NCBI GenBank assembly: GCA_947650365.1
Contig: OX393549.1
Location: 28,053,209-28,117,208, forward strand
DNA from: Chamaelirium japonicum
Taxonomy: Eukaryota; Streptophyta; Magnoliopsida; Liliales; Melanthiaceae
DNA: 64,000 nt
Reading direction: 5' to 3'
This document shows, in pieces, positions 1 through 64,000 of the stretch (position 1 is its first letter; each line of letters starts with the position of its first letter). The notes beneath the pieces are model-generated. The model worked only from the letters and a program-made list of their open reading frames with translations, did no database searches and was not told where the DNA came from. The translations under genes and the position numbers were made by a program.

Positions 1-652
1 ATTAGAATGGATACATTCGTGCGAATGAATTAGAATGGATTGTATGAAGGAATTAGAATGGATCGTACGAATGAATTAGAATGGATCATACGAATTAATT
101 AGAATGGATCATACGAATGAATTAGAATTGATCGTACGAATGAATTAGAATGGATCGTACGAATGAATTAGAATGGATCATGCGAATGAATTAGAATGGA
201 TCGTACGAATGAATTTGAATGGATACATTTGCGCGAATGAATTAGAATGGATCGTACGAATGAATTAGAATGGATCGTATGAATGAATTAGAATGGATAG
301 TACGAATGAATTAGAATGGATCGTACGAATGAATTAGAATGGATCGTGTGAAATAATTAGAATGGATCGTACGAATAAATTAGAATGGATCGTGCGAATG
401 AATTAGAATGGATCGAACGAATGAATTAGAATGGATACATTTGTGCGAATGAATTAGAATGGATCGTACGAATGAATTAGAAAGGATCGTATGAATGAAT
501 TAGAATGGATCGTACGAATGAATTAGAATGGATCGTGCGAATGAATTAGCATGGATCGTACGAATGAATTAGAATGGATCGTACGAATGAACTAGAATGG
601 ACACAATCGTGCGAATGAATTAGAATGGATCGTACGAATGAGTTAGAATGGA
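1..652 (+). repeat. Satellite block, forward
   Basis: About 27 monomers. 28-bp forms occur near 1-25, 220, 430 and 595. The block ends at the 14-bp palindrome GAATGGATCCATTC (646-659), a junction type seen only here in the window. Confidence 0.93.
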
Positions 653-901
653 TCCATTCGAATTCATTCGCACGATCCATTCTAATTGATTCATACGATC
701 CATTCTAATTCATTCGTACGATCCATTCTAATTCATTCACACAAATATATCCATTCTAATTCATTCGTACGATCCATTCTAATTCATTCGCACGATCCAT
801 TCTAATTCATTCGTGCAATCCATTCTATTTCATTCGTACGATCCTTTCTTATTCATTCGTACGATCCATTCTAATTCATTCACACGAATGTATCCATTCG
901 T
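653..901 (-). repeat. Satellite block, reverse
   Basis: Short reverse block between the GGATCC palindrome and the CATTCGTACGAATG palindrome at 895-908. Confidence 0.92.
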
Positions 902-1933
902 ACGAATGAATTAGACTAGATTGTACGAATGAATTAGAATGGATCGTACGAATGAATTAGAATGGATCGTATGAAGGAATTAGAATGGATCGTACGAATG
1001 AATTAGAATGGATCGTACGAATGAATTAGAATAGATCGTACGAATGAATTAGAATGGATCGTACGAAGGAATTAGAATGGATCGTACGAATGAATTAGAA
1101 TGGATATATTCGTGCAAATGAATTAGAATGGATCGTATGAATGTATTAGAATGGATCGTATGAGTGAATTAGAATGGATGGTATGAATGAATTAGAATGG
1201 ATCATACGAATTAATTAGAATGGATCATACGAATGAATTAGAATGGATCGTACGAATGAAGTAGAATGGATCGTACGAATGAATTAGAATGGATCATACG
1301 AATGAATTAGAATGGATCATACGAATGAGTAAGAATGGATCGTACGAATGAAATAGAATGGATTGTACGAATGAATTAGAATGGATACAATCGTGCGAAT
1401 GAATTAGAATGGATCGTACGAATGAATTAGAATGGATCGTACGAATGAATTAGACTGGATCGTACGAATGAATTTGAATGGATATATTTGTGCGAATGAA
1501 TCTAAATGGATTGTATGAATGAATTACAATGGATCGTACGAATGAATTAGAATGGATCGTATGAATGAATTAGAATGAATCGTATGAATGAATTAGAATG
1601 GTTACATTCGTGCGAATGAATTAGAATAGATCGTACGAATGAATTAGAATGGATCGTACGAAAAAATTAGAATGGATCATGGGAATGAATTAGAATGGAT
1701 CGTACGAATGAATTAGAATGGATCCACCGAATGAGTTAGAATGGATCATACGAATGAATTAGAATGGATTGTACGAATGAATTAGAATGGATTGTGCGAA
1801 TAAATTAGAATGGATCGTATGAATGAATAAGAATGGATCGTACGAATGAATTAGAATGGATCGTGCGAATGAATTAGCATGAATCGTACGAATGTATTAG
1901 AATGGATCGTACGAATGAATTAGAATGAATCGT
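902..1933 (+). repeat. Satellite block, forward
   Basis: Contains the marker variants GAATCTAAATGG (near 1498), TTACAATGG and GGTTACATTCG, a multi-monomer segment that returns near 24.6, 32.6, 53.8 and 62.4 kb. It ends at ATCGTACGAT (1929-1938), the same junction as at 10374 and 62859. Confidence 0.93.
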
Positions 1934-2013
1934 ACGATCCATTCTAATTCATTCGTACGATCCATTCTAATTCATTCGCACGAATGTATCCATTCTAGTT
2001 CATTCGTACGATC
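1934..2013 (-). repeat. Satellite block, reverse, interrupted by the LTR
   Basis: Reverse monomers up to the insertion point. Joined to 3324 onward through one CGATC copy, the 23-bp register continues without a base lost or gained. Confidence 0.93.
2009..2013. repeat. Left target-site duplication, CGATC
   Basis: CGATC directly abuts the TG of the island and is repeated at 3319-3323. Both copies lie in ordinary satellite monomers. A 5-bp duplication is the usual footprint of LTR-element integrase. Confidence 0.9.
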
Positions 2014-2023
2014 TGTTTGGGGG
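2014..2023 (+). repeat. LTR 5' terminus, TGTTTGGGGG
   Basis: Short terminal inverted repeat. It matches the reverse complement of the 3' end (TGTTGGGGG) except for one extra T. Confidence 0.85.
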
Positions 2024-2107
2024 ATTTTTCCTGGTCCTTGCGAGCCACCTGTAAGACCAAGAAAAGAGAAACGTGAGAACGGCTGGCTCCCTTAGGAGCG
2101 CAGACCC

Positions 2108-2124
2108 TCCGACGCTCAAGTCAG
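2108..2124 (+). promoter_or_regulatory. Conserved-looking LTR motif TCCGACGCTCAAGTCAG
   Basis: I recognise TCCGA(C/T)GCTCAAGT(C/T)AG-like blocks as common upstream of the TATA region in plant LTRs. Its function is not known to me. It supports a plant origin and + orientation. This is recognition from memory, not a database match. Confidence 0.5.
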
Positions 2125-2210
2125 TGATGGTAGCACAACGGAGAGCTGTTGTATACCAAAGTGGAAGGGAAAGGGATTTCGAACCTGTACTTTGGAGCCT
2201 GGGGGTATGC

Positions 2211-2218
2211 ATTTATAG
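2211..2218 (+). promoter_or_regulatory. TATA-like box ATTTATAG, probable U3 promoter
   Basis: ATTTATAG follows a GCCTGGGGGTATGC stretch about 200 bp into the LTR, a usual place for the TATA of a plant LTR. Transcription would then begin around 2240-2250 and mark the start of R. No experiment or second copy is available to confirm the start site. Confidence 0.5.
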
Positions 2219-2400
2219 ACAGTGGCGACCTATCGGGGTGTGACGTGTGGCAGCTCTTTCCAGAGCCTTCTAGGCCCCCACGTTCTAGCCTTCAATAGTT
2301 TCTGACAGTTCTTGGAATTTGGACCCTTGACATTCTTTGTCGTCTAGCTCGTCTGACGAAGTAGTGGGGGACAGCAGCTGCTGTTCTGTTGCCGCCATGG

Positions 2401-2418
2401 GAATCTTCTAGAATATTC
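2401..2418. promoter_or_regulatory. Perfect four-module heat-shock element
   Basis: GAATCTTCTAGAATATTC reads GAA-2-TTC-2-GAA-2-TTC, four alternating modules with exact spacing, the binding pattern of trimeric heat-shock factor. The element is symmetric, so strand is undefined. It lies about 185 bp downstream of the TATA-like box, so it would be in the transcribed part unless another promoter is used. Heat-responsive plant LTRs such as ONSEN carry such elements, usually upstream of the start site. Confidence 0.6.
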
Positions 2419-2644
2419 AAGTCTAGGAGGTCTCAAACCGACTCTGACGGGCTTCCGTGGACTGCAATCATCCACGTAGCTTCAGTGGGTTCTCGACACC
2501 TGGTAATCTTTATGCTGCTTTTACTGGGGATGATCTCAGGGAAAAAGCAAAGGCCAGCTCGCCCGGTACTGCTCCGTCCTTTCGCCCATATTTATCAAGA
2601 GTTGGACCTCGCGAGAGCAACCTCTTCGATAAACAGGGGTCTAG

Positions 2645-3095
2645 GCGAGCTTTGGCGAGCTCATGAGTAAGCATGGGCGAGCTCCTGGGTGAGCTTGGGC
2701 GAGCTCCTGTGCGAGCTAGGCGAGTTCCTGAGTGAGCATGGCGAGCTCCTGGGCGAGCTAGGCGAGCTCCTGAGCGAGCATGGCGAGCTCTTGGACGAGC
2801 TTGGGCGAGCTCCTGTGCGAGTTAGGCGAGCTCCTGAGCGAGCATGGCGAGCTCTTGGACGAGCTTGGGCGAGCTCCTATGCGAGTTAGGCGAGCTCCTG
2901 AGCGAGCATGGCGAGCTCCTGTGCGAGCATGGCGGGCTCCTGGACGAGCTTTGGGCAAGCTCCTGTGCGAGCTAGGTGAGCTCCTGAGCGAGCATGGCGA
3001 GCTCCTGGACGAGCTTTGGGCGAGCTCCTGTGCGAGCTAGGCGAGCTCCTGAGCGAGCATGGCGAGCTCCTGGACGAGTTTGGGCGAGCTCCTTC
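2645..3095 (+). repeat. GAGCTC minisatellite inside the LTR, 64-bp trimer unit
   Basis: Twenty full units of 21-23 bp plus partial ends, each starting GCGAGCTCCTG or close to it. Three subtypes alternate: one ending GTGCGAGCTAG, one ending AGCGAGCATG, one ending GACGAGCTTGG. Together they make a 64-bp higher-order unit: the AGCGAGCATG subtype starts at 2762, 2826 and 2890 (steps of 64), then 2976 and 3041. Each unit is itself two 10-11 bp halves that both begin GCGAGC. Open frames here (GELL, SEHGELLDEL patterns) exist only because the units are mostly 21 bp; they are not evidence of a protein. Confidence 0.92.
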
Positions 3096-3201
3096 ACGCT
3101 CTTTGTCTAAGCCATTTATCGAATTTGGGCGTGTCATTGTGGGGACTGGAGGTGCGAGCTGTACTCAGATACAAGGTGTCCATCCAGCTCCCTGTGGGGG
3201 A

Positions 3202-3254
3202 GAGCTCCTGAAGGGCTGAGAGGGCGAGCTCCTGGCGGGCTGGAGGGCGAGCTC
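3202..3254 (+). repeat. Degenerate outlying GAGCTC units
   Basis: GAGCTC recurs at 3202, 3226 and 3249, steps of 24 and 23 bp, with diverged GGGCTG-rich spacers. These look like old edge units of the minisatellite, separated from it by about 100 bp of unique LTR sequence. Confidence 0.65.
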
Positions 3255-3309
3255 CTTGCGAGGGTTCCAACTCCTGGACGGGCTATCCAAGATATGTGGT
3301 TTTTGACTA

Positions 3310-3318
3310 CCCCCAACA
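3310..3318 (+). repeat. LTR 3' terminus, CCCCCAACA
   Basis: Ends in CA and is the inverted partner of the 5' terminus. It is directly followed by the second CGATC. Confidence 0.85.
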
Positions 3319-3323
3319 CGATC
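3319..3323. repeat. Right target-site duplication, CGATC
   Basis: Identical to 2009-2013. Together the pair shows a clean integration with no flanking deletion. Confidence 0.9.
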
Positions 3324-5831
3324 CATTCTAGTTCATTCGTATGATCCATTCTAATTCATTCGTATGATCCATTCTAATTCATTCGTATGATCCATTCTAA
3401 TTAATTTGTATGATCCATTCTAATTCATTCGTACGATCCATTCTAATTCATTCATACAATCCATTCTAATTCATTCGCACGAATGTATCCATTCTAATTA
3501 ATTCGTACGATCCATTCTAATTCATTCGTATGATCCATTCTTATTCATTCGCACGATCCAGTCTAATGGATTCGCACGATCCATTCTAATTCATTCGCAC
3601 GAATGTATCCATTCTAATTCATTCGTACGATCCATTCTAATTCATTAATATGATCCATTCTAATTCAATTGCATGATCCATTCTAATTCATTCGTACGAT
3701 CCATTCTAATTCATTCGTACGATCCATTCTAATTCATTCGCATGATCCATTCTAATTCATTCGTACAATCTATTCTATTTTATTCGTACGATCCAATCTT
3801 ACTTATTCGTATGATCCATTCTAATTCATTCGGACGAATGTATCCATTCTAATTTATTCGTACGATCCATTCTAATTCATTCATACAATCCATTCTATTT
3901 CATTCGTACGATCCATTCTTACTCATTCGTATTATCCATTCTAATTCATTCGTATAATCCATTCCAATTCATTCGTACGATCCATTCTAATTCATTCGTA
4001 CAATCCATTCTATTTCATTCGTACGATCCATTCTTACTCATTCGTATGATCCATTCTAATTCATTCGCACGAATGTATCCATTCTAAATCATTCGTACGA
4101 TCCATTCTAATTCATTCGTACGATCCATTCTAAATCATTCGTACAATCCATTCTATTTCATTCGTACGATCAATTCTAATTCATTAGCACGATCCATTCT
4201 AATTAATTCGTACGATCCATTCAAATTCATTCGCACGATCCATTCTAATTCATTCGTACAATCCATTCTATTTCATTCGTACGATCCATTCTTACTCATT
4301 CGTATGATCCATTCTAATTCATTCACACGAATGTATCCATTCTAATCCATTCGTACGATCCATTCTAATCCATTCGTACGATCCATTCTAATTCATTCGC
4401 ATGAATGTAACTATTCTAATTCATTCATTTGATCCATTCTAATTCATTCGAACGATCCATTCTAATTCATTCGTCCGATCCATTCTAATTCATTCGCACG
4501 AATGTATCCATTCTAAACCATTCATACGATCCATTCTAATTTATTCATACGATCCATTCTAATTCATTTGTAAGATCCATTCTAATTCATTCGTACGATC
4601 CATTCTAATTCATTCGTACGATCCATTCTAATTCATTCATAAGATCCATTCTAATTCATTCGTACGATCCATTCTAATTCATTCGTACGTTCCATTCTAA
4701 TTCATTAGCACGATCCATGCTAATTCATTCGTTCGATCAATTCTAATTCATTAGCACGATCCATTCTAATTCATTCGTACGATCCATTCTAATTCATTCG
4801 TACGATCCATTCTAATTCATTCGCACGATCCATTCTAATTCATTCATAGGATCCATTCTAATTCATTCATACGATCTATTCTAATTCTTTCGCACGAATG
4901 TATCCATTCTAATTCATTCGCACGAATGTATCCATTCTAATTCATTCATACGATCCATTCTAATTCATTCGTATGATCCATTCTAATTCATTCGTACGAT
5001 CCATTCTAATTCATTTATACGATCTATTCTAATTCATTCATACAATCCATTCTAATTCTTTCACACGATCCATTCTAATTCATTCGTACGATCCATTCTA
5101 ATTCATTCGCACAATCCATTCTATTTCATTCGTACGATCCATTCTTACTCATTGGTACGATCCATTCTAATGCATTCGCACAAATGTATCCATTCTAATT
5201 CATTCGTACGAATCCATTCTAATTCATTCGTACAATCTATTCTACTTCATTCGTACGATCCATTCTTACTCATTCGTATGATCCATTCTAATTCATTCGG
5301 ACGAATGTATCCATTCTAATTTATTCGTACGATCCATTCTAATTCATTCGTACGATCCATTCTAATTCATTCGTACGATCCATTCTAATTCATTCGTCCG
5401 ATCCATTCTAATTCATTCGCACGAATGTATCCATTCTAATTCATTCGTACGATCCATTCTAATTCATTCATACGATCCATTCTAATTCATTCGTAAGATC
5501 CATTCTAATTCATTAGTACGATCCATTCTATCTCACTCATACGATCCATTCTAATACATTCATACGATCCATTCTAATTCATTTGCACGAATATATCCAT
5601 TCTAATTCATTCGTACGATCCATTCTAATTCATTCGTAGGATCCATTCTAATTCATTCGTACGATCCATTCTAATTCATTCGCACAATCCATTCTATTTC
5701 ATTCATACGATCTATTCTTACTCATTCGTATGATCCATTCTAATTAATTCGCACGAATGTATCCATTCTAATTCATTCATACAATCCATTCTAATTCATT
5801 CCGTACGATCCATTCTAATTCATTCGTACGA
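3319..5831 (-). repeat. Satellite block, reverse (2.5 kb)
   Basis: One of the longest uninterrupted blocks. It holds repeated copies of the three-monomer marker CTATTTCATTCG / CTTACTCATTCG (for example near 3775, 3895, 4010, 4265 and 5110), often near a 28-bp form. It ends in the 60-bp palindrome at 5802-5861. Confidence 0.93.
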
Positions 5832-5861
5832 TCGTACGAATGAATTAGAATGGATCGTACG
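5802..5861. repeat. 60-bp perfect palindrome at an orientation switch
   Basis: Two 30-bp arms pair without a mismatch about the centre 5831/5832 (GTACGATCGTAC in the middle). The next pair, 5801/5862, mismatches because of one extra C in the left arm; beyond it the arms remain related satellite. There is no loop, so the arms meet directly. Confidence 0.93.
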
Positions 5862-7416: not shown

Positions 7417-7758
7417 CATTCGTACGATCCATTCTAATTCATTCGTAAGATCCATTCTAATTCATTCGTACGATTAATTCATTCGTACGATCTATTCTAA
7501 TTCATTCGAACGAATGTATCCATTCTAGTTCATTCGTACGATCCATTCTAATTCATTCATACGGTCCATTCTAATTCATTCATACGATCTATTCTAATTC
7601 ATTCATACAATCCATTCTAATTCTTTGACATGATCCATTGTAATTCATTCGTACGATCCATTCTAATTCATTCGCACAATCCATTCTATTTCATTCGTAC
7701 GATCCATTATTACTCATTCGTATGATCCATTCTAATTCATTCGCACGAATGTATCCAT
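7417..7758 (-). repeat. Satellite block, reverse
   Basis: Includes one shortened monomer (CGATTAATTCATTCG, near 7470). It ends at ATCCAT-A-ATGGAT (7753-7765). Confidence 0.9.
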
Positions 7759-8139
7759 AATGGATCATACGAATGAGTAAGAATGGATCGTACGAATGAA
7801 ATAGAATGGATTGTGCGAATGAATTAGAATGGACCGTACGAATGAATTACAATGGATACATTCGTGCGAATGAATTAGAATGGATCGGACGAATGAATTA
7901 GAATGGATCGTACGAATGAATTAGAATGGATCATACGAATGAATTAGAATGGATCGTACGAATAAATTAGAATGGATACATTCGTCCGAATGAATTAGAA
8001 TGGATCATACGAATGAGTAAGAATGGATCGTACGAATGAAATAGAATAGATTGTACGAATGAATTAGAATGGATCCTACGAATGAATTAGAATAGATCGT
8101 GTGAAAGAATTAGAATGGATTGTATGAATGAATTAGAAT
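7759..8139 (+). repeat. Satellite block, forward
   Basis: Opens with the GAGTAAG / GAAATAG marker and ends AATTAGAATTAATTC, a junction seen again at 18917. Confidence 0.9.
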
Positions 8140-9598: not shown

Positions 9599-9611
9599 GC
9601 ATGATCCATTC
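9590..9611. repeat. Fold-back hairpin GAATGGATC-GCAT-GATCCATTC
   Basis: Perfect 9-bp arms around GCAT. After it the array resumes forward, so only about half a monomer is inverted. Copies lie at 19931-19952 (perfect) and 54935-54956 (one mismatch). Confidence 0.9.
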
Positions 9612-11520: not shown

Positions 11521-12135
11521 CACGATCCATGCTAATTCATTCGTTCGATCAATTCTAATTCATTAGCACGATCCATTCTAATTCATTCGTACGATTCAAT
11601 CTAATTCATTCGCACGATCCATTCTAATTCATTCGTACGATCCATTCTAATTCTTTCACACGATCCATTCTAATTCATTCGGACGATCCATTCTAATTCA
11701 TTCGTACGATCTATTCTAATTCATTCGTACGATCCATTCTAATTTCATTCGTACGATCCATTCTAATTCATTTGCTCGAATGTATCCATTCTAATCCATT
11801 CGTACGATCCATTCTAATCCATTCGTACGATCCATTCTAATTCATTCGCATGAATATAACCATTCTAATTCATTCATTTGATCCATTCTAATTCATTCGT
11901 ACGATCCATTCTAATTCATTCGTCTGATCCATTCTAATTCATTCGCACGAATGTATCCATTATAATCCATTCGTAAGATCCATTCTAATTCATTCGTACG
12001 ATCCATTCTAATTCATTCGTACGATCCATTATAATTCATTAATATGATCCATTCTAATTCATTCGTACGATCCATTCTAATTCATATGCACAAAGGTATC
12101 CATTCTAATTCATTCGTACGATCCATTCTAATTCA
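11521..12135 (-). repeat. Satellite block, reverse
   Basis: Carries GCATGAATATAACC (near 11850), a variant of the GCATGAATGTAACC marker. It ends ATTCA joined to GGATCGTACG, as at 17584, 59060 and 61883. Confidence 0.9.
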
Positions 12136-12572
12136 GGATCGTACGAATGAATTAGAATGGATACATTCGTGCGAATGAATTAGAATTGATCGTACGAATG
12201 AATTAGAATGGATCGTGCGAATGAATTAGAATGGATCGTACGAATGAATTAGAATGGATCGTACGAATGAATTAGAATAGATCGTACGAATGAATTAGAA
12301 TGGATCGTACGAAGGAATTAGAATGGATCGTACGAATGAATTAGAATGGATATATTCGTGCAAATGAATTAGAATGGATCGTCTGAATGTATTAGAATGG
12401 ATTGTATGAGTGAATTAGAAATGATCGTACGAATGAATTAGAATGGATTGTATGAATGAATTAGAATGGATCGTACGAATGAATTAGAATGGATCATACG
12501 AATTAAGTAGAATGGATCATACGAATGAATTAGAATGGATCGTACGAATGAATTAGAATGGATACATTCGTG
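12136..12572 (+). repeat. Satellite block, forward
   Basis: About 19 monomers. It stops in the middle of a 28-bp form (ACATTCGTG), then reverse TCGCATGAATG; no palindrome of note. Confidence 0.9.
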
Positions 12573-23965: not shown

Positions 23966-23992
23966 ACGATCCATTCTAATTCATTAGCATGG
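23966..23992 (-). repeat. Single inverted monomer with hairpin
   Basis: One reverse monomer in a forward array. Its arms ATTCTAATTCATTA (23973-23986) and their complement at 24000-24013 flank a 13-bp loop. This is a slightly damaged form of the hairpin at 31925-31971. Confidence 0.88.
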
Positions 23993-26354: not shown

Positions 26355-26355
26355 A

Positions 26356-43996: not shown

Positions 43997-46046
43997 TTCG
44001 TATGATCCATTCGAATTCATTTGCACGATCCATTCTAATTCATTCATACGATCCATTCTAATTCATTCATACAATCCATTCTAATTCTTTCACACGATCC
44101 ATTCTAATTCATTCGTAGGATTCATTCTAATTCATTCGTACAATCTATTCTATTTCATTCGTACGATCCATTCTTACTCATTCATATGATCCATTCTAAT
44201 TCATTCGGACGAATGTATCCATTCTAATTTATTCGTACGATCCATTCTAATTCATTCGTACGATCCATTCTAATTCATTCGTACGATCCATTCTTACTCA
44301 TTCGTATGATCAATTCTAATTCATTCGTACGATCCATTCTAATTCATTCGTACGATCGATTCTAATTCATTCGCACTATCCATTCTAATTCATTCGTACG
44401 ATCCATTCTAATTCATTCGTATGATCCATTCTAATTTATTCGTTCAAATATATCCATTCTAATTCATTCGTACGATCCATTCTAATTCAACCGCACGATC
44501 CATTCTAATTCATTTGCACGAATGTATCCATTCTAATTCATTTGCACGATCTATTCTAATTCATTCCTATGATCTATTCTAATTCGTTCGTACGATCCAT
44601 TCTAATTCATTCTAATTCATTCGTATGTTCCATTCTACGATCCATTCTAATTCATTCGTATATTCCATTCTAATTCATTAGCACGATCCATGCTAATGAA
44701 TTAGAATGGATCATACGATCCAATCTAATTCATTCATACGATTCATTCTTACTCATTCGTATGATCCATTCTAATTCAATCGTACGATCCATTCTAATTC
44801 ATTCGTACGATCCATTCTAATTCCTTCGTACGATCCATTCTAATTCATTCGTACGATCCATTCTAATTCATTCGTACGATCCATTCTAATTCCTTTGTAC
44901 GATCCATTCTAATTCATTCGTACGATTCATTCTAATTCATTCGCGCAATCTATTCTAATTCATTCGTACGATCCATTCTAATTCATTCGTACGATCCATT
45001 CTAATTCATTCATACAATCCATTCTAATTTATTCGCACGAATGTATCCATTCTAATTCATTCGTACGATCCATTCTAATTCATTCGCACAATCTATTCTA
45101 ATTCATTCATACGATCCATTCTAATTCATTCGAACGAATGTATCCATTCTAATTCATTCATACGATCCATTCTACTTCATTTGTACTATCCGTTCTAATT
45201 CACTCATACGATCCATTCTAATTCATTCATACGATCCATTCTAATTCATTTGCACGAATATATCCATTCTAATTCCTTCGTACGATCCATTCTATTTCAT
45301 TCGTATGATCCATTCTAATTCCTTCGTACGATCCATTCTAATTCCTTCGTATCCATTCTAATTCACTCATACGATCCATTCTAATTCATTCGTACGATCC
45401 ATTCTAATTCATTCATACGATCCATTCTATTTCATTCGCACGAATGTATCCATTCTAATTCATTCGTACGATCAGTTCTAATTCGTTCACAAAATCTATT
45501 CTAATTCATTCATACGATCCATTCTAATTCATTCACACGAATGTATCCATTCTAATTCATTCATACGATCCATTCTAATTCATTTGTACGATCCATTCTA
45601 ATTCACTCATACGATCCATTATAATACATTCATACGATCCATTCTAATTCATTTGCATGAATATATCCATTCTAATTCATTCGTAAGATCCATTCTATTT
45701 CCTTCGTACGATCCATTCTAATTCATTCGTACGATCTATTCTAATTCATTCGTACGATCCATTCTAATTCCTTCGTACAATCCATTCTAATTCATTCGTA
45801 CGATCCATTCTAATTCATTCATACAATCGATTCTAATTCTTTCACACGATCCATTCTAATTCATTCGTACGATCCATTCTAATTCATTCGCATGAATGTA
45901 TCCATTCTAGTTCATTCGTACGATCCATTCTAATTCATTCGTACGATCCATTCTAATTCATTCGCACGATCCATTCTAATTCATTCGTACGATCAATTCT
46001 AATTCATTCGCACGAATGTATCCATTCTAATTCATTCGTACGATCC
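43997..46046 (-). repeat. Satellite block, reverse half of copy 2
   Basis: Hairpin at 44664-44710 and many CTAATTCCTTCG monomers near 45260-45350. It ends CGATCC-TGAATTAG. Confidence 0.92.
44664..44710. repeat. Hairpin, 20-bp perfect arms, 7-nt loop
   Basis: Same sequence as 40094-40140, offset 4,570 bp. Arms 44664-44683 and 44691-44710. Confidence 0.93.
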
Positions 46047-48451
46047 TGAATTAGAATGGATCGTACGAATGAATTAGAATGGATACCTTTGTGCATATGA
46101 ATTAGAATGGATCGTACGAATGAATTAGAATGGATCATATTAATGAATTAGAATGGATCGTACGAATGAATTAGAATGGATACATTCGTGCGAATGAATT
46201 AGAATGGATCATACGAATGAATTAGAATGGATCGTACGAATGAACTATAATGGATACATTCGTGCGAATGAATTAGAATGGATCGTACGAATGAATTAGA
46301 ATGGATCGTACGAATGAATTAGAATAGATCTTACGAATGAATTAGAATGGATCGTACGAATGAATTAGAATGGATCGTGCGAATGAATTAGAATGGATCA
46401 TTTTAATGAATTAGAATGGATTGTACGAATGAATTAGAATGGATACATTCGTGCGAATGAATTAGAATGGATCAGACGAATGACATAGAATGGATCGTAC
46501 GAATGAATTAGAATGGATCAAATGAATGAATTAGAATGGTTACATTCATGCGAACGAATTAGAATGGATCGTACGAATGGATTAGAATGGATACATTCGA
46601 GCGAATGAATTAGAATGGATCGTACGAATGAATTAGAATGGATCGTACGAATGGATTAGAATGGATCCTACGAATGGATTAGAATGGATACCTTTGTGCA
46701 TATGAATTAGAATGGATTGTACGAATGAATTAGAATGGATCATATTAATGAATTAGAATGGATCGTACGAATGAATTAGAATGGATACATTCGTGCGAAT
46801 GAATTAGAATGGATCGTGCGAATCAATTAGACTGGATCGTGCGAATGAATAAGAATAGATCATACAAATGAATTAAAATGGATCGTACGAATTAATTAGA
46901 ATGGATACATTCGTGCGAATAAATTAGAATGGATTGTATGAATGAATTAGAATGGATCATACGAATGAATTAGAATGGATCCTACGAATTAATTAGAATG
47001 GATCAGACGAATGAATTAGAATGGATCGTACGAATGAATTAGAATGGATCGTACGAATGAATTAGAATGGATACATTCTTGCGAATGAATTAGAATGTAT
47101 TGTCCGAATGAATAAGAACAGATCGTGCGAATGAATTAGAATGGATCGTACGAATGAATTAGAATGGATCGTGCGAATGAATTAGAATGGATCGTACGAA
47201 TGAATTAGAATGGATACATTTGTGCGAATGAATTAGAATGGATCGTATGAATGAATTAGAATGGATCGTACGAATGAATTAGAATGGATCGTGCGAATGA
47301 ATTAGAATGGATCGTACGAATGAATTAGAATGGATCGTACGAATGAACTAGAATGGATACATTCGTGCGAATGAATTAGAATGGATCATACGAATGAATT
47401 AGAATGGATCGTGCGAATGAATTAGAATGGATCGTACGAATGAATTAGAATGGATCGTGTGAAAGAATTAGAATGGATCGTACGAATGAATTAGAATGGA
47501 TCGTGCGAATGAATTAGAATGGATTGTACGAATGAATTAGAATGGATACATTTGTGCGAATGAATTAGAATGGATCGTACGAATGAATTAGAATGGATCG
47601 TATTAATGAATTAGAATGGATCGTACGAATGAATTAGAATGGATCGTGCGAATGAATTAGAATGGATCGTACGAATGAATTAGAATGGATACATTCGTGC
47701 GAATGAATTAGAATGGATCGGACGAATGAATTAGAATGGATCGTACGAATGAATTAGAATGGATCGTACAAATAAATTAGAATGGATACATTCGTCCGAA
47801 TGAATTAGAATGGATCATACGAATGAGTAAGAATGGATCATACGAATGAAATAGAATAGATTGTATGAATGAATTAGAATGGATTCGTACGAATGAATTA
47901 GAATGGATACATTCATGCGAATGAATTAGAATGGATCGTACCAATGAGTAAGAATGGATCGTACGAATGAAATAGAATGAATTATGCGAATGAATTAGAA
48001 TGGATCGTACGAATAAATTAGAATGGATCGTGTGAAAGAATTAGAATGGATTGTATGAATGAATTAGAATAGATCGTATGAATGAATTAGAATGGATCGT
48101 ACGAATGAATTAGAATGGATCGTACGAATGAATTAGAATGGATCGTACGAATGAATTAGAATGGATACATTCGTATGAATGAATTAGAATGGATACATTC
48201 GTGCGAAAGAATTACAATAGATCGTATGAATAAATTAGAATGGATCCTATGAATGAATTAGAATGGATCGTGCGAATGAATTAAAATGGATCGTACGAAT
48301 GAATTAGAATAGACCGTGCTAATGAATTAGAATTGATCGAACGAATGAATTAGCATGGATCGTGCTAATGAATTAGAATGGAACATACGAATGAATTAGA
48401 ATGGAGCGTGTGAAAGAATTAGAATGGATTGTATGAATGAATTAGAATGAA
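46047..48451 (+). repeat. Satellite block, forward half of copy 3 (2.4 kb)
   Basis: Follows copy 2 almost monomer by monomer. It ends at GAATTC (48449-48454). Confidence 0.92.
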
Positions 48452-50433
48452 TTCGTACGATCCATTCGAATTCATTTGCACGATCCATTCTAATTCATTC
48501 ATACGATCCATTCTAATTCATTCATACAATCCATTCTAATTCTTTCACACGATCCATTCTAATTCATTCGTAGGATTCATTCTAATTCATTCGTACAATC
48601 TATTCTATTTCATTCGAACGATCCATTCTTACTCATTCATATGATCCATTCTAATTCATTCGGACGAATATATCCATTCTAATTTATTCGTACGATCCAT
48701 TCTAATTCATTCGTACGATCCATTCTAATTCATTCGTACGATCCATTCTTACTCATTCGTATGATCCATTCTAATTCATTCGTACGATCCATTCAAATTC
48801 ATTCGTACGATCGATTCTAATTCATTCGCACTATCCATTCTAATTCATTCGTACGATCCATTCTAATTCATTCGTATGATCCATTCTAATTTATTCGTTC
48901 AAATATATCCATTCTAATTCATTCGTACGATCCATTCTAATTCAATCGCACGATCCATTCTAATTCATTTGCAAGAATGTATCCATTCTAATTCATTTGC
49001 ACAATCCATTCTAATTCATTCCTATGATCTATTCTAATTCACTCGTATGATCCATTCTAATTCATTCTAATTCATTCGTATGTTCCATTCTACGATCCAT
49101 TCTAATTCATTCGTATATTCCATTCTAATGCATTAGCACGATCCATGCTAATGAATTAGAATGGATCGTACGATCCAATCTAATTCATTCATACGATCCA
49201 TTCTTACTCATTCGTATGATCCATTCTAATTCAATCGTACGATCCATTATAATTCATTCGTACGATCCATTCTAATTCCTTCGTACGATCCATTCTAATT
49301 CATTCATACGATCCATTCTAATTCATTCGTACGATCCATTCTAATTCCTTCGTACGATCCATTCTAATTCATTCGTACGATTCATTCTAATTCATTCGCG
49401 CAATCTATTCTAATTCATTCGTACGATCCATTCTAATTCATTCGTACGATCCATTCTAATTCATTCATACAATCCATTCTAATTTATTCGCACGAATGTA
49501 TCCATTCTAATTCATTCGTACGATCCATTCTAATTCATTCGCACAATCTATTCTAATTCATTCATACGATCCATTCTAATTCATTCGCACGAATGTATCC
49601 ATTCTAATTCATTCATACGATCCATTCTAATTCATTTGCACAAATATATCCATTCTAATTCATTCGTACGATCCATTCTAATTCCTTCGTACGATCCATT
49701 CTAATTCCTTCGTACGATCAATTCTATTTCATTCGTATGATCCATTCTAATTCCTTCGTACGATCCATTCTAATTCCTTCGTATCCATTCTAATTCACTC
49801 ATACGATCCATTCTAATTCATTCGTACGATCTATTCTAATTCATTCATACAATCCATTCTAATTCATTCGCACGAATGTATCCATTCTAATTCATTCGTA
49901 CGATCAGTTCTAATTCATTCAAAAAATCTATTCTAATTCATTCATACGATCCATTGTAATTCATTCACACAAATGTATCCATTCTAATTCATTCATACGA
50001 TCCATTCTAATTCATTCGTACGATCCATTCTAATTCACTCATACGATCCATCCTAATACATTCATACGATCCATTCTAATTCATTTGCCCGAATATATCT
50101 ATTCTAACTCATTCGTACGATCCATTCTAATTCCTTCGTACGATCCATTCTAATTCATTCGTACGATCTATTCTAATTCATTCGTACGATACATTCTAAT
50201 TCATTCGTACGATCCATTCTAATTCCTTCGTACGATCCATTCTAATTCATTCGTACGATCCATTCTAATTCATTCGTACGATCCATTCTAATTCTTTCAC
50301 ACGATCCATTCTAATTCATTCGTACGATCCATTCTAATTCATTCGTGCAATCCATTCTATTTCATTCGTACGATCCATTCTTACTCATTCGTACGATCTA
50401 TTCTAATTCATTCACATGAATGTATCCCTTCGT
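48452..50433 (-). repeat. Satellite block, reverse half of copy 3
   Basis: Hairpin at 49119-49165. It ends TCCCTTCGTACGAATG, a one-base variant of the CATTCGTACGAATG junction. Confidence 0.92.
49119..49165. repeat. Hairpin, 20-bp arms with one mismatch
   Basis: Same hairpin, 4,455 bp after 44664, with one change in the left arm (TTCATTAG to TGCATTAG). Confidence 0.9.
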
Positions 50434-53118: not shown

Positions 53119-53119
53119 A

Positions 53120-54139: not shown

Positions 54140-54544
54140 TTCGTACGATCCATTCGAATTCATTCGTACGATCCATTCTAATTCATTCATACGATCCATT
54201 CTAATTCATTCATACAATCCATTCTAATTCTTTCACACGATCCATTCTAATTCATTCGTAGGATCCATTCTAATTCATTCGTACAATCTATTCTATTTCA
54301 TTCGTACGATCCATTCTTACTCATTGGTATGATCCATTCTAATTCATTTGGACGAATGTATCCATTATAATTTATTTGTATGATCCATTATAATTCATTC
54401 GTACGATCCATTCTAATTCATTCGTACGATCCATTCTTACTCATTCGTATGATCCATTCTAATTCATTCGTACGATCCATTCTAATTCATTCGCACAATC
54501 TATTCTAATTCATTCGTACGATCCATTCTGATTTATTCGTACGA
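54140..54544 (-). repeat. Satellite block, reverse
   Basis: Ends at GTACGATCGTAC (54539-54550), the same centre as the 60-bp palindrome at 5802 but with diverged arms. Confidence 0.91.
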
Positions 54545-55299
54545 TCGTACAAATGAATTTGAATGGATCGTACGGAATGAATTAGAATGGATTGTATGAA
54601 TGAATTAGAATGGATACATTCGTGCGAATGAATTAGAATGGATCATACGAATGAGTAAGAATGGATCGTACGAATGAAATAGAATGGATTGTACGAATGA
54701 ATTAGAATGGATCGTACAAATGAATTAGAATGGATCGTACGAATGAATTAGAATGGATCATACGAATGAGTAAGAATGGATCGTACAAATGAAATAGAAT
54801 AGATTGTACGAATGAATTAGAATGCATCGTACGAATGAATTTGAATGGATCGTGTGAAAGAATTAGAATGCATTGTATGAATGAAATAGAATGGATCGTA
54901 TGAATGAATTAGAATGGATCGTGCGAATGAATTCAAATGGATCGCATGATCCATTCGAATAGAATGGATCGTATGAATAAATTAGAATGGATCGGGCGAA
55001 TGAATTAGAATGGATTGTAGGAATGAATTAGAATGGATCGTATGAATGAATTAGAATGGCTCGTATGAATGAATTAGAATAGATCGTGCGAATGAATTAG
55101 AATGCATCATACGAATGAATTAGAATGGATCATACGAATGAATTACAATGGACCATATGAATGAATTAGAATGGATCATACGAATGAGTAAGAATGGATC
55201 GTACGAATGAAATAGAATAGATTGTACGAATGAATTAGAATGGATACATTCGTGCGAATGAATTAGAATGGATCGGACGATTGAATTAGAATGGATCGT
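54545..55299 (+). repeat. Satellite block, forward, with a fold-back
   Basis: Fold-back at 54935-54956 (third copy, one mismatch). It ends at ATCGTACGAT (55295-55304), with the same approach as 20291. Confidence 0.91.
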
Positions 55300-55948
55300 A
55301 CGATTCATTCTAATTCATTCGTACGATCCATTCTAATACATTCGTACGATTCATGCTAATTCATTCGCACGATCCATTCTAATTCATTCGTACGATCCAT
55401 TCTTATTCATTCATACGATCCATTCTAATTCATTCGCACAATCCATTCTAATTCATTCATACAATCCATTCTAATTCATTCGTATGATCCATTCTAACTC
55501 ATTCGGTGGATCCATTCTAATTCATTCGTACGATCCATTCTAATTCATTCCCACGATCCATTCTAATTTATTCGTACGATCCATTCTAATTCATTCGTAC
55601 GATCTATTCTAATTCATTCGCACGAATATAACCATTCTAATTCATTCATACGATTCATTCTAATTCATTCGTACGATCCATTCTAATTCATTCGTACGAT
55701 CCATTCGAATTCATTCGGACGATCCATTCTAATTCATTCGCACGAATGTATCCATTCTAATTCATTCGTACGATCCATTCTAATTCATTCATACAATCCA
55801 TTCTAATTCTTTCACATGATCCATTCTAATTCATTCGTACGATCCATTCTAATTCATTCGTGCAATCCATTCTATTTCATTCGTACGATCCATTCTTACT
55901 CATTCGTACGATCCATTCTAATTCATTCACACGAATGTATCCATTCGT
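55300..55948 (-). repeat. Satellite block, reverse
   Basis: Contains CATTCGGTGGATCC near 55502. It ends at CATTCGTATGAATG (55942-55955). Confidence 0.91.
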
Positions 55949-57597
55949 ATGAATGAATTAGAATAGACTGTACGAATGAATTAGAATGTATCGTACGAAT
56001 GAATTAGAATGGATCGTACAAAGGAATTGGAATGGATCGTACGAATGAATGAGAATGGATCGTACTAATGAATTAGAATGGATCGTACGAAGGAATTAGA
56101 ATGGATCGTACGAATGAATTAGAATGGATATATTCGTGCAAATGAATTAGAATGGATCGTATGAATGTATTAGAATGGATCGTATGAGTGAATTAGAATG
56201 GATCATACGAATTAATTAGAATGGATCATACGAATGAATTAGAATGGATCGTACGAATGAATTAGAATGGATCGTACGAATGAATTAGAATGGATACATT
56301 CATGCGAATGAATTAGAATGGATTGTGTGAATGAATAAGAACAGATCGTGCGAATGAATTAGAATGGATCGTACGAATGAATTAGAATGGATCGTGTGAA
56401 TGAATTAGAATGGATCGTACAAATGAATTAGAATGGATACATTTGTGCGAATGAATTAGAATGGATCGTACGAATGAATTAGAATGGATCATACGAATGA
56501 ATTAGAATAGATCGTATGAATGAATTAGAATGGATCGTGCGAATGAATTAGAATGGATCGTACGAATGAATTAGAATGGATCGTACGAATGAACTAGAAT
56601 GGATACATTCGTGCGAATGAATTAGAATGGATCGTACGAATGAATTAGAATGGATCGTACGAATGAATTAGAATGGATCTTACGAATGAATTAGAATGGA
56701 TCGTACGAATGAATTAGAATGGATCGTACGAATGAATTAGAATGGATATATTTGTGCGAATGAATTAGAATGGATCGGACGAATGAATTAGAATGGATTG
56801 TACGAATGAATTAGAATGGATCATATGAATGAACTAGAATGGATACATTCGTGCGAATGAATTAGAATGGATCGTACGAATGAATTAGAATGGATCGTAC
56901 GAATGAGTTAGAATGGATCTTACGAATGAATTAGAATGGATCGTACGAATGAATTAGAATGGATCGTACGGATGAATTAGAATGGATACATTCGTGCGAA
57001 TGAATTAGAATAGATCGGACGAATGAATTAGAATGGATTGTACGAATGAATTAGAATGGATCGTACGAATGAATTAGAATGGATCGTACGAATAAATTAG
57101 AATGGATACATTCGTCCGAATTAATTAGAATGGATCATACGAATGAGTAAGAATGGATCGTACGAATGAAATAGAATAGATTGTACGAATGAATTAGAAT
57201 GGATTCGTACGAATAAATTAGAATGGATACATTCGTGCGAATGAATTAGAATGGATCGTACCAATGAGTAAGAATGGATCGTACGAATGAAATAGAATGG
57301 ATTGTGCGAATGAATTAGAATGGATCGTACGAATGAATTAGAATGGATCGTGTGAAAGAATTAGAATGGATTGTATGAATGAATTAGAATAGATCGTATG
57401 AATGAATTAGAATGGATCGTATGAGTGAATTAGAATGGATACGAAGGAATTATAATGGATCGTACGAATGAGTAAGAATGGATCGTACAAATGAAATAGA
57501 ATGTATTGTACGAATGAATTAGAATGGATCCTACGAATGAATTAGAATAGATCGTGTGAAATAATTAGAACGGATTGTATGAATGAATTAGAATGAA
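55949..57597 (+). repeat. Satellite block, forward (1.65 kb)
   Basis: A local doubling is visible: the series 28-bp form, GATCTTACG, GATCGGACG occurs near 56601-56780 and again near 56837-57020. It ends at GAATTC (57595-57600). Confidence 0.92.
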
Positions 57598-59060
57598 TTC
57601 GTACGATCCATTCGAATTCATTTCCACGATCCATTCTAATTCATTCATACGATCCATTCTAATTCATTCATACAATCTATTCTAATTCACTCATACGATC
57701 TATTATATTTCATTCGTACGATCCATTCTTACTCATTCGTATGATCCATTCTAATTCATTCGGATGAATGTATCCATTCTAATTTATTCGTACGATCCAT
57801 TCTAATTCATTCGTACGATCCATTCTAATTCATTCGTACGATCCAGTCTAATTCATTCGTCCGATCCATTCTAATTCATTCGCACGAATGTATCCATTCT
57901 AAGTCATTCGTACGATCCATTCTAATTCATTCGTACGATCCATTCTAATTCATTCGTAAGATCCATTCTAATTCATTCGTACGATCCATTCTAATTCATT
58001 CGTACGATCCATTCTAATTCATTCGTAAGATCCATTCTAATTCATTCGTACGATCCATTCTAATTCATTCGTACGTTCCATTCTAATTCATTCGCACGAA
58101 TGTATCCATTCTAGTTCATTTGTACGATCCATTCTAATTCATTCGTACGATCCATTCTAATTCATTCGTACGATCCATTCTAATTCATTCGCACGAATGT
58201 ATCCATTCTAGTTCATTTGTACGATCCATTCTAATTCATTCGTACGATCCATTCATATTCATTCGCACGATCCTTTCTAATTCATTCGTACGATCCATTC
58301 TAATTCATTCATATGATCCATTCTAATTCATTCGTACGATCCATTCTAATTCATTCATACGATCCATTCTAATTCATTCGTACGATCCATTCCAATCCAT
58401 TCTAGTTCATTCGTACGATCCATTCTAATTCCTTCGTACGATCCATTCTAATTCATTCGTACGATCTATTCTAATTCATTAGTCCGATCCATTCTAATTC
58501 ATTCGCACGAGTGTATCCATTCTAATACATTCATACGATCCATTCTAATTCATTTGCACGAATATATCCATTCTAATTCATTCGTACGATCCATTCTTAT
58601 TCCTTTGTACGATCCATTCTAATTCATTCGTACGATCTATTCTAATTCATTCGTCCGATCCATTCTAATTCATTCGCACGAATGTATCCATTCTAATTCA
58701 TTCGTATGATCCATTCTAATTAATTCGTATGATCCATTATAATTCATTCGTACGATCCATTCTAATTCATTCATACAATCCATTCTAATTCATTCGCACG
58801 AGTGTATCCATTCTAATTAATTTGTACGATCCATTCTAATTCATTCGTATGATCTATTCTTATTCCTTTGCACGATCCAGTCTAATTGATTCTCACGATC
58901 CATTCTAATTCATTCGCACGAATGTATCCATTCTAATTCATTCGTACGATCCATTCTAATTCATTAATATAATCCATTCTAATTCATTCGTACGATCCAT
59001 TCTAATTCATATGCACAAGGGTATCCATTATAATTCATTCGTAAGATCCATTCTAATTCA
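57598..59060 (-). repeat. Satellite block, reverse (1.5 kb)
   Basis: A short internal doubling of GTATCCATTCTAGTTCATTTG is seen at 58100 and 58200. It ends ATTCA-GGATCGTACG. Confidence 0.92.
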
Positions 59061-60722
59061 GGATCGTACGAATGAATTAGAATGGATACATTCGTGCGAA
59101 TGAACTAGAATTGATCGTACGAATGAATTAGATGGGATCGTGTGAATGAATTAGAATGGATCATACGAATGAATTAGAATGGATCGTACGAATGAACTAG
59201 AATGGATACATTCGTGCGAATGAATTAGAATGGATCGTACGAATGAATTAGAATAGATACATTTGTGCGAATGAATTAGAATGGATCGGACGAATGAATT
59301 AGAATGGATCGTACGAATGAATTAGAATGGATCAAATGAATGAATTAGAATGGATCGTACGAATGAATTAGAATGGATTGTACGAATGAATTAGAATGGA
59401 TACATTCGTGCGAATGAATTAGAATGGATCGGACGATTGAATTAGAATAGATCGTACGAATGAATTAGAATGGATCGTACGAAGGAATTAGAATGGATCG
59501 TACGAATGAATTAGAATGGATATATTCGTGCAAATGAATTTGAATGGATCGTATGAATGTATTAGAATGGATCGTATGAGTGAATTAGAATGGATTATAC
59601 GAATGAATTAGAATGGATCGTATGAATGAATTAGAATGGATACATTCATGTGAATGAATTAGAATGGATCGTATGAATGAATTAGAATAGATTTTGTGAA
59701 TGAATTAGAATTGATCGTACGAATGAATTAGAATGGATACATTCGTGCGAATGAATTAGAATGGATTGTATGAATGAATTAGAATGGATCGTACGAATGA
59801 ATTAGAATGGATCGTATGAGTGAATTAGAATGGATACGAAGGAATTAGAATGGATCGTACGAAGGAATTAGAATGGATCATACGAATGAAATAGAATGGA
59901 TCGTACGAAGGAATTAGAATGGATCGTACGAAGGAATTAGAATGGGTCGTACGAAGGAATTAGAATGGATCGTACGAATGAATTAGAATGGATATATTCG
60001 TGCAAATGAATTATAATGGATCGTATGAATGAATTAGAATGGATCGCATGAGTGAATTAGAACGGATAGTACGAATGAAGTAGAATGGATCGTATGAATG
60101 AATTAGAATTGATACATTGGTGCGAATGAATTAGAATGGATCGTACGAATGAATTAGAATGGATTGTACGAATGAATTAGAATGGATCTTACGAATGAAT
60201 TAGAATGGATCGTATGAATGAATTAGAATGGATCGCACGAATGAATTAGAATGGATACATTCGTTCGAATGAATTAGAATGGATCGGACGAATGAATTAG
60301 AATGGATCGTACGAACGAATTAGAATGGATCAAATGAATGAATTAGAATGGTTACATTCAAGCGAATGAATTAGAATGGATTAGAATGGATGCATTCGAG
60401 CGAATGAATTAGAATGGATCGTACGAATGAATTAGAATGGATCGTACGAATGGATTAGAATGGATCGTACGAATGGATTAGAATGGATCCTACGAATGGA
60501 TTAGAATGGATACCTTTTTGCATATGAATTAGAATGGATCATACGAATGAATTAGAATGGATTGTACGAATGAATTAGAATGGATCATGCTAATGAATTA
60601 GAATTGATCGAACGAATGAATTAGCATGGATCGTGCTAATGAATTAGAATGGAACATACGAATGAATTAGAATGGATCGTGTGAAAGAATTAGAATGGAT
60701 TGTATGAATGAATTAGAATGAA
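59061..60722 (+). repeat. Satellite block, forward (1.7 kb)
   Basis: The middle (59690-60080) parallels 23160-23530, including GATTTTGTG, GGATACGAAGG and GAACGGATAG. It ends at GAATTC (60720-60725). Confidence 0.92.
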
Positions 60723-61883
60723 TTCGTACGATCCATACGAATTCATTCGCACGATCCATTCTAATTCATTCATACAATCCATTCTAATTCATTCATATGA
60801 TCTATTCTAATTCTTTCGCACGAATGTATTTATTCTAATTCATTCGCACGAATGTATCCATTCTAATTCATTCGTACGATCCATTCTAATTCATTCGCAC
60901 GATCCATTCTAATTCATGCGTACGATCAATTCTAATTCATTCGCACGAATGTATCCATTCTAATTCATTCGTACGATCCATTCTAATTCATTCATAGGAT
61001 CCATTCTAATTCATTCATACAATCCATTCTAATTCATTCGCACGAATGTATCCATTCTAATTCATTCGTACGATCAGTTCTAATTCATTCACAAAATCTA
61101 TTCTAATTCATTTATACGATTCATTCTAATTCATTCACACGAATATATCCATTTTAATTCATTCATACGATCCATTCTAATTCATTCGTACGATCCATTC
61201 TAATTCACTCATACGATCCATTCTAATACATTCATACGATCCATTCTAATTCATTTGCACGAATATATCCATTCTAATTCATTCGTAAGATCCATTCTAA
61301 TTCCTTCGTACGATCCATTCTAATTCATTCGTACGATCTATTCTATTTCATTCGTACGATCCATTCTTACTCATTCGTACGATCTATTCTAATTCATTCG
61401 TCCGATCCATTCTAATTCATTCGCACGAATGTATCCATTCTAATTCATTCGTACGATCCATTCTAATTCATTCGCACGATCCATTCTAATTCATTCGTAC
61501 GATCCATTCTAATTCTTTCTCACGATCCATTTTAATTCATTCGTACGATCCATTCTAATTCATTCGCACGATCCATTCTAATTCATTCGTACGATCCATT
61601 CTAATTCATTCATACGATCCATTCTAATTCATTCGTACGATCCATTCTAATTCATTCGCACAAATGTATCCATTCTAATTCATTCGTACGATCTATTCTA
61701 ATTCATTCGCACGATCCATTCTAATTCATTCGTACGATTCATTCTAATTCATTCGTACGATCCATTCTAATTCATTCGTATGATCCATTCTAATTAATTC
61801 GTATAATCCATTCTAATTCATTCGTATATTCCATTCTAATTCATTCGCCCGATCCATTCATTCGTACGATCCATTCTAATTCA
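60723..61883 (-). repeat. Satellite block, reverse (1.2 kb)
   Basis: Contains CGATCAGTTC / CACAAAATC (61073-61097), shared with 21772, 40882 and 45471. A shortened monomer (CCATTCATTCG near 61856) precedes the ATTCA-GGATCGTACG end. Confidence 0.92.
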
Positions 61884-62863
61884 GGATCGTACGAATGAAT
61901 TAGAATGGATACATTCGTGCGAATGAATTAGAATTGATCGTACGAATGAATTAGAATGGATCGTGCGAATGAATTAGAATGGATTGTACGAAGGAATTAG
62001 AATGGATCGTACGAATGAACTAGAATGGATACATTCGTGCGAATGAATTAGAATGGATCGTACGAATGAATTAGAATGGATCGTACGAATGAATTAGAAT
62101 GGATCTTACGAATGAATTAGAATGGATCGTACGAATGAATTAGAATGGATCATACGAATGAATTAGGATGGATACATTCGTGCGAATGAATTAGAATGGA
62201 TCGGACGAATGAATTAGAATGGATCGTACGAATGAATTAGAATGGATCAAATGAATGAATTAGAATGGATCGTACGAATGAATTAGAATGCATCGTACGA
62301 AAGAATTAGAATGGATATATTCGTGCGAATGAATTAGAATGGATCGTACGAATGAATTAGACTGGATCGTACGAATGAATTTGAATGGATACTTTTGTGC
62401 AAATGAATCTAAATGGATTGTATGAATGAATTACAATGTATCGTACGAATGAATTAGAATGGATTGTACGAATGAATTAGAATAGCTCATACGAATGAAT
62501 TAGAATGAATTGTATGAATGAATTAGAATGGATACATTCGTGCGAATGAATTAGAATAGATCGTACGAATGAATTAGAATGGATCGTACGAATAAATTAA
62601 AATAGATCGTGGGAATGAATTAGAATGGATCGTACGAATGAATTAGAATGGATCCACCGAATGAGTTAGAATGGATCATACGAATGAATTAGAATGGATT
62701 GTACGAATGAATTAGAATGGATTGTGCGAATAAATTAGAATGGATCGTATGAATGAATAAGAATGGATCGTATGAATGAATTAGAATGGATCATGCGAAT
62801 GAATTAGCATGAATCGTACGAATGTATTAGAATGGATCGTACGAATGAATTAGAATGAATCGT
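61884..62863 (+). repeat. Satellite block, forward
   Basis: Fifth copy of the GAATCTAAATGG segment (near 62405), then GGATCCACCG and TTAGCATGAATCG as in 902-1933. It ends at ATCGTACGAT (62859-62868). Confidence 0.92.
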
Positions 62864-63245
62864 ACGATCCATTCTAATTCATTCGTACAATCCATTCTAA
62901 TTCATTCGCACGAATGTATCCATTCTAGTTCATTCGTACGATCCATTCTAGTTCAGTCGTACGATCCATTCTAATTCATTCGTACGATCCATTCTAATTC
63001 ATTCGTATGATCCATTCTAATTAATTCGTATGATCCATTCTAATTCATTCGTTCGATCCATTCTAATTCATTTATTCAATCCATTCTAATTCATTCGCAC
63101 GAATGTATCCATTCTAATTAATTCATACGATCCATTCTAATTCATTCGTATGATCCATTCTTATTCATTCGCACGATCCAGTCTAATGGATTCGCACGAT
63201 CCATTCTAATTCATTCGCACGAATGTATCCATTCTAATTCATACA
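62864..63245 (-). repeat. Satellite block, reverse
   Basis: Carries CAGTCTAATGGATTCGCACG near 63180. It ends TCATACAATCG-TGTGAATAAATTAG. Confidence 0.91.
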
Positions 63246-63398
63246 ATCGTGTGAATAAATTAGAATGGTTATATTCATGCGAATGAATTAGAATGGATCG
63301 TACGAATGGATTAGAATGGATCGTACGAATGGATTAGAATGGATACATTCGTGCGAATGAATTAGAATGGATTGTATGTATGAATTAGAATGGATCGT
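63246..63398 (+). repeat. Satellite block, forward, 153 bp
   Basis: Short block ending in the 22-bp perfect palindrome at 63388-63409. Confidence 0.91.
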
Positions 63399-63409
63399 AC
63401 GATCCATTC
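63388..63409. repeat. 22-bp perfect palindrome at a switch
   Basis: Same sequence as 25176-25197; centre 63398/63399. Confidence 0.92.
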
Positions 63410-64000
63410 GAATTCATTCGTATGATCCATTCTAATTCATTCGTACGATCCATTCTAATTCATTCGTACGAATGTATCCATTCTAATTCATTTGCACGAT
63501 CCATTCTAATTCATTCCTATGATTTATTCTAATTCATTCGTACGATCAATTCTAATTCATTCTAATTCATTCGTACGATCCATTCTACGATCAATTCTAA
63601 TTCATTCATATATTCCATTCTAATTCATTAGCACGATCCATGCTAATGAATTAGAATGGATCATACGATCCAATCTAATTCATTCATACGATCCATTCTT
63701 ACTCATTCGTATGATCCATTCTAATTCAATCGTATGATCCATTCTAATTCATTCATACGATCCATTCTAATTCCTTTGTACGATCCATTCTAATTCATTC
63801 GTATGATCCATTCTAATTCATTCGTACGATTCATTCTAATTCCTTCGTACGATCCATTCTAATTCATTTGTACGATCCATTCTAATTCATTCGCGCAATC
63901 TATTCTAATTCATTCGTACGATCTATTCTAATTCATTCGTACGATCCATTCTAATTCATTCATACAATCCATTCTAATTTATTCGCACGAATGTATCCAT
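63399..64000 (-). repeat. Satellite block, reverse, runs off the window
   Basis: From 63480 it follows the reverse half of the 4.5-kb unit (39960, 44520 and 48975 onward), including the hairpin at 63614-63660. A fourth copy may continue beyond the window. Confidence 0.9.
63614..63660. repeat. Hairpin, 20-bp perfect arms, 7-nt loop
   Basis: Same as 40094-40140. Arms 63614-63633 and 63641-63660. Confidence 0.93.

Follow-up and report, generated by a model that had tools for sequence, protein, structure and literature searches.

Strand alternation in a Chio1/Chio2-type array

The stretch of DNA analysed here, referred to as the window (64 kb; C1:28,053,209-28,117,208), lies in the 137-Mb C1 of Chamaelirium japonicum, the NCBI species name for Chionographis japonica. 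Over its full length (1..64000) it is a satellite array of the Chio1/Chio2 type, broken by one non-satellite insert, in which blocks of short monomers alternate between the two strands. The alternation of this satellite as such has already been published. The present analysis concerns the sequences at the strand switches, which recur within the window and in distant arrays, and the duplicated modules in which these switches lie.

The array was segmented with a two-strand profile hidden Markov model (HMM) built on the 23-bp monomer CGTACGAATGAATTAGAATGGAT. The model assigns 33,294 bp of the window to one strand and 29,402 bp to the other, with 1,304 bp of non-satellite insert, and yields 77 satellite blocks with 75 strand switches, 38 forward-to-reverse (F-to-R) and 37 reverse-to-forward (R-to-F). 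Block length, taken from the 75 blocks wholly within the window, has a median of 694 bp and a maximum of 2,521 bp (41477..43997, plus strand); another example of a long block, on the minus strand, measures 2,512 bp (3318..5829). The original prediction had described about 70 alternating blocks, between a few hundred bases and 2.5 kb long, filling the whole window. Its block count and length range fit the segmentation and the alternation does run throughout, but six micro-blocks, 13 or 24 bp long, fall below the range, and the solo-LTR-like (long terminal repeat) insert at 2014-3318 is not satellite. The 100 kb on either side alternate too, giving 307 switches over 264 kb, an average spacing of 836 bp, and 313 satellite blocks with a median of 656 bp and a mean of 836 bp. 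As a control, a one-strand array of 65.8 kb was simulated with 7% of bases redrawn, which leaves it a little less diverged than the real satellite, and with 5 bp added to 14% of monomers. The same HMM returned a single block and no switches from it, and noise in the segmentation is therefore ruled out as the source of the switches.

Judged from its sequence features, this is very likely the satellite Chio1/Chio2, to which CENH3 binds in the holocentric C. japonica. The expected pair of a dominant 23-bp and a 28-bp monomer is present: among the window's 2,591 full monomers, 2,156 measure 23 bp and 361 measure 28 bp. Chio1 and Chio2 are distinguished by a 5-bp deletion and one substitution (Kuo 2023, PMC10264360), and a one-base difference of this kind is found: in the long form with 5 extra bp, the base three places into the next CGTACG reads G 323 times out of 369 (174/199 in plus-strand and 149/170 in minus-strand blocks), and the same base is G in 502 of the 2,156 23-bp monomers. 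The 9-bp TTCGTACGA, which Kuo 2025 (PMC12722358, Fig. 2 legend) places within the Chio monomer of 23 bp, occurs in the window when tandem monomers are read as their reverse complement. The consensus trimer is predicted to fold into an 8-bp TCGTACGA stem with a 15-nt loop, matching the Chio dyad that pairs neighbouring monomers, and mixed forward and reverse arrays, a further Chio trait, are seen in the window, its flanks and genome-wide. Four pieces of the monomer gave no match in the main texts of the literature searched; the published monomer stands in a figure and its letters in none of these texts, and the name therefore rests on the combined features.

Genome-wide counts were made on the assembly of 1,518,659,071 bp in 3,253 contigs. 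The satellite dimer, at up to 3 mismatches, occurs 3,088,632 times in forward and 3,119,018 times in reverse orientation (~6.2 million), and among the matches listed many places along C1 and also C2 are represented. The two strands are thus near balance, at 49.8% and 50.2%. Scaled by local density, the dimer count corresponds to ~300 Mb of satellite or ~20% of the genome, an amount of sequence rather than a count of units. The published figures are 16.11% of the genome and ~100 Chio units, on average 1.89 Mb long, across 12 chromosomes (2n = 24; Kuo 2023, PMC10264360). CENH3 chromatin immunoprecipitation (ChIP) enriched the satellite clusters CL1 and CL73 11.1- and 11.7-fold (Kuo 2023, PMC10264360). 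The centromere role that had been surmised for the window is thus published for this satellite, and the window probably represents the interior of a C. japonica centromere unit.

Recurrent junctions and duplicated modules

The 75 switches of the window are not 75 different sequences. When the 80 bp around each switch are compared and up to 8 edits are allowed, 20 classes result; twelve are single, and the other eight, all multicopy, account for 63 switches. Over 264 kb, average-linkage clustering at several cut-offs places the 307 switches in 31-47 classes, the biggest comprising 57 switches, of which 27 run one way and 30 the opposite way. The class with 57 copies, more than any other in the 264 kb, is represented in the window by an F-to-R junction of register 6 (43958..44037). 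Three R-to-F junctions also recur: class RF3, found at ten places in the window (12096..12175) and predicted to form a 29-bp stem with an 11-nt loop; register 9, with six window copies and a 32-member class in 264 kb (7719..7798); and register 15, with seven window copies (858..937). Register phases are markedly uneven (chi-square p ~1e-33 and 4e-15), although the copies are not independent and these values overstate the effect. R-to-F registers 13 and 16 do not occur at all among the 395 junctions examined in the window, its flanks and the distant arrays described below. The switches first proposed are real, but they are copies of fewer junctions rather than about 70 independent features.

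The switches recur together with the sequence around them. Self-comparison with plain BLAST produced overlapping matches by the thousand and was not used; it was replaced by rare 40-mers and an alignment of monomer variants, in which a score of at least 80 was taken as duplication (one shuffle gave maxima of 32 for direct and 38 for inverted matches). This identified 380 direct and 130 inverted duplications. Direct ones take in 87% of the monomers and inverted ones 24%; for the 308 strand changes the shares are 91% and 32%, respectively. Twelve hand-chosen copy pairs, from ~4.5-kb units to tens of kilobases, are 97.6-99.8% identical over aligned columns, with gaps of one monomer or more left out, compared with a baseline of 87.2% for random monomer pairs.

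Examples of such modules lie in the window. At 38643..50188 a higher-order unit of ~4.5 kb, flips included, is present in ~2.5 tandem copies: 38643-45664 aligns to 43213-50096 over 310 monomers and 7 switches, and the first two copies are 98.0% identical over aligned columns. At 54141..63668 lies part of a module, again with flips, that is duplicated ~26 kb further on, outside the window; the segment 53613-63668 and its copy share 99.3% identity over 9,982 aligned columns. Beyond the window, a large unit is duplicated, and three of its copies contain a 124-bp non-satellite insert (window-relative 111439, 143781 and 160776; loci L015, L018 and L020). Two copies of the insert are alike and one differs at two bases; its near-identical presence in all three indicates that it was copied along with the unit.

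Sharing of switches between distant arrays

Switches near the window are also found far from it. Three 10-kb pieces from C1:51 Mb (L024), C1:135 Mb (L025) and C2:19 Mb (L026) were taken from the dimer listing and not picked by junction. Within their 80 bp, 33 of 46 switches lie at most 3 edits from a switch near the window (7/14, 13/16 and 13/16, respectively), so that sharing extends to sampled arrays of two chromosomes; among artificial F-to-R joins, 0 of 150 match at this distance. Three further pieces (L021-L023) gave 32 matches among 42 switches, a biased figure given that they had been picked at matches of one junction, and the claim of sharing therefore rests on L024-L026. Sharing goes beyond single junctions, in that pieces at C1:1.82 Mb and C1:135 Mb are 97.3% identical over 3,609 aligned columns, flips included. 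Of 395 junctions, 394 were pooled (one was clipped by the end of its locus) and form 57 classes at 6 edits, and the 16 classes found in at least two arrays hold 310 of them. The C2 piece also carries a higher-order unit, ~3.7 kb long (790-8333), in which the same series of flips is repeated head to tail at 97.6% identity over aligned columns.

Taken together, the small number of classes, the duplicated modules and the sharing with distant arrays make most sampled flips look inherited rather than newly made on the spot. The explanation that we favour, at a probability of about 0.82, starts from a limited number of founder switches whose origin is mixed or unknown. Higher-order modules would have taken these switches up, and would then have multiplied within arrays and been carried between them. 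Multiplication within arrays could have proceeded, for example, by unequal exchange; transfer among arrays and chromosomes, in either orientation, would have involved ectopic copying, be it gene conversion, break-induced copying or reinsertion of extrachromosomal circular DNA (eccDNA). How the copying worked, in which order events took place and what part hairpins may have had are matters of inference here. Confidence is held at this level because the fold-back tests discussed below are mixed and the sample is small.

Several observations weigh against this explanation. In the three unbiased pieces, 13 of 46 switches are without a match within 3 edits, and relaxing the limit to 6 edits lets 23 of the 150 artificial joins match as well, in a control made of F-to-R joins only. 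The number of classes is still climbing, from 51 at 300 junctions to 57 at 394, 19 of them single, and new flips may still be arising or array-specific ones may exist elsewhere. Monomers this short and similar could let separate flips converge on one sequence. Six 10-kb samples stand for ~300 Mb of satellite. Finally, the 36-bp core of the RF3 junction, the only junction counted genome-wide, has 6,499 copies (3,364 and 3,135 by strand), whereas its local density predicts ~32,000; by this deficit, arrays are partly private. The sampled arrays have a common core of switches, and the remainder differs.

Non-satellite sequences are found at several places. The insert in the window (2014..3318) begins with TG, ends with CA and is flanked by a 5-bp target duplication, CGATC; it contains internal GCGAGCTCCTG-like tandem repeats. 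A second solo-LTR-like insert lies in L025 (1852-2921; target duplication GTATC), and the similar ends of the two are 79.9% identical over 427 aligned columns. A 673-bp insert (window-relative -77515 to -76843; L003) is located between a minus-strand and a plus-strand block, and in L024 the array is broken by a GC-rich GCGCGGGC-like repeat (9861-10000).

Origin of the switches

The founder switches could have arisen in several ways. One alternative holds that most flips are separate local events, produced by repeated fold-back repair or template switching at dyad-rich monomers. Monomers and junctions do bear dyads that fold well in prediction. The longest perfect inverted-repeat arms in 10 junction classes measure 11-27 bp (two at 11), compared with a median of 8 and a maximum of 11 bp at 40 within-block sites; predicted folding z-scores are -8.4, -9.0 and -11.1 for three junctions, the last with the 29-bp stem, and -2.2 and -4.0 for two within-block stretches. 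The hairpin potential anticipated for the array is thus supported in silico. Fold-back further predicts that private variants are mirrored on both sides of a switch. One example is a micro-palindrome at 40098..40165, a 24-bp block with 20-bp perfect arms, a 7-nt loop and a variant common to both arms; its class, with blocks of 13 or 24 bp, occurs also at 23970, 31925, 44695, 49150 and 63645 and is likely to be a true fold-back, as far as sequence can tell.

For the other switches the evidence points both ways. In an earlier test of mirrored arms, the 95% point of the null was exceeded by 19.8% of 263 junctions and the 99% point by 6.1%. Most of this excess lies in two large classes, F-to-R in register 6 and R-to-F in register 9, and it comes from copies that do not count as independent. 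When classes of at most 20 members each were compared with random arms, none of the 11 testable ones reached p < 0.05 (lowest values 0.087 and 0.091); two micro-palindrome classes were too short for this test. The register-9 class has a suggestive mirrored run in its consensus, and as a candidate for a clear fold-back it failed against random arms. Fold-back at the founders generally is weakly indicated, by mixed evidence. As a general cause of the flips seen here, repeated fold-back repair, which the original prediction had put forward, is not supported, given the 63 of 75 switches in eight multicopy classes and the recurrence of most sampled flips elsewhere: the same 80-bp junctions are found often, also in other arrays. 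We regard separate local origins for most flips as improbable.

A second alternative invokes inversion, either of array segments in place or in the form of larger inversions with one breakpoint in the array, which have been proposed for the spread of centromere units (Kuo 2023, PMC10264360). That whole flip-bearing modules are found both ways round, in 130 inverted duplications, agrees with such events. A clean in-place inversion, in contrast, predicts equal phase at both ends of a block, and this is observed in 4 of 306 neighbouring pairs, with ~9 expected by chance; end phases agree within one base in 33 of 306 pairs, with ~34 expected. Inversions accompanied by losses at their ends are compatible with these counts, and inversion as the main source of the flips appears doubtful, with a low probability.

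A third alternative is that selection keeps the alternation, inverted neighbours forming hairpins that aid CENH3 loading. The strong hairpins predicted at junctions, the binding of CENH3 to the Chio satellite (PMC10264360) and a review that ties dyads to centromeres (PMC8997354) are in its favour. However, the Chama satellite binds CENH3 without alternating (PMC12722358), and copying alone accounts for the recurrence of junctions. Selection of this kind is compatible with founder switches followed by copying; as the explanation of the alternation it seems unlikely.

HiFi (high-fidelity) reads are far longer than 836 bp, the mean spacing of the switches. Assembly error, always a concern in satellite arrays, which are difficult to assemble, is highly implausible in view of this read length, of the same junctions in several arrays that each have differences of their own, of a published primary assembly built with hifiasm from 58.5x HiFi reads (1,526,137,861 bp in 3,786 contigs before scaffolding; PMC10264360), and of two papers reporting mixed or alternating orientation (PMC10264360, PMC12722358).

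Alternating satellites and the spread of centromere units

Chio was described as a mixture of forward and reverse arrays (Kuo 2023, PMC10264360), and its 'frequently alternating orientation' was later contrasted with Chama of the sister genus, whose arrays keep a consistent orientation (Kuo 2025, PMC12722358). The array described here shares with published Chio the 23/28-bp monomers, TTCGTACGA, the 8-bp hairpin between monomers, the distribution of arrays along chromosomes and the alternation itself (PMC10264360, PMC12722358); the parts of the two papers drawn on here do not describe junction sequences, their return in different units or the duplication of modules that carry flips. Likewise, no study of the switch sequences was found among the papers listed by literature searches or in these parts of Kuo 2023 and Kuo 2025. 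Chama, of Chamaelirium luteum, is a CENH3 satellite that resembles Chio in its 9-bp TTCGTACGA and dyad symmetry, but has a 60-bp monomer, constant orientation and higher-order repeats kept over hundreds of kilobases (PMC12722358). Orientation switches also occur in the mouse minor and major satellites, in 1.7% of MiSats and 1.9% of MaSats (PMC10880262), compared with one switch every 836 bp on average here, although the measures are not the same. In human satellites 2 and 3, 1,738 reads matching both strands were excluded as exceptions that might mark breakpoints of inversions (PMC4022460); the likeness lies in both-strand matching only, and these measures, too, differ from those used here. 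Chio alternates far more densely than the mouse or human satellites compared.

What the present analysis adds to the published alternation is a view of the switches as inherited markers common to the sampled arrays. The mechanism by which new centromere units spread chromosome-wide in Chionographis remains unknown (Kuo 2025, PMC12722358). If junctions are inherited markers across units, as the sampled arrays suggest, a census of junctions could reveal the order and direction of this spread and could separate models based on gene conversion, eccDNA insertion and inversion. A more speculative extension, which we hold to be rather unlikely, is that flip-bearing modules, and not monomers or uniform arrays, were what spread at the holocentric transition, with the junctions and their stems of up to 29 bp acting as break-and-copy hotspots that mobilised modules, balanced the strands genome-wide and maybe favoured CENH3 loading. 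If modules did spread in this way, the junction sequences would amount to a readable pedigree of centromere units seeding each other.

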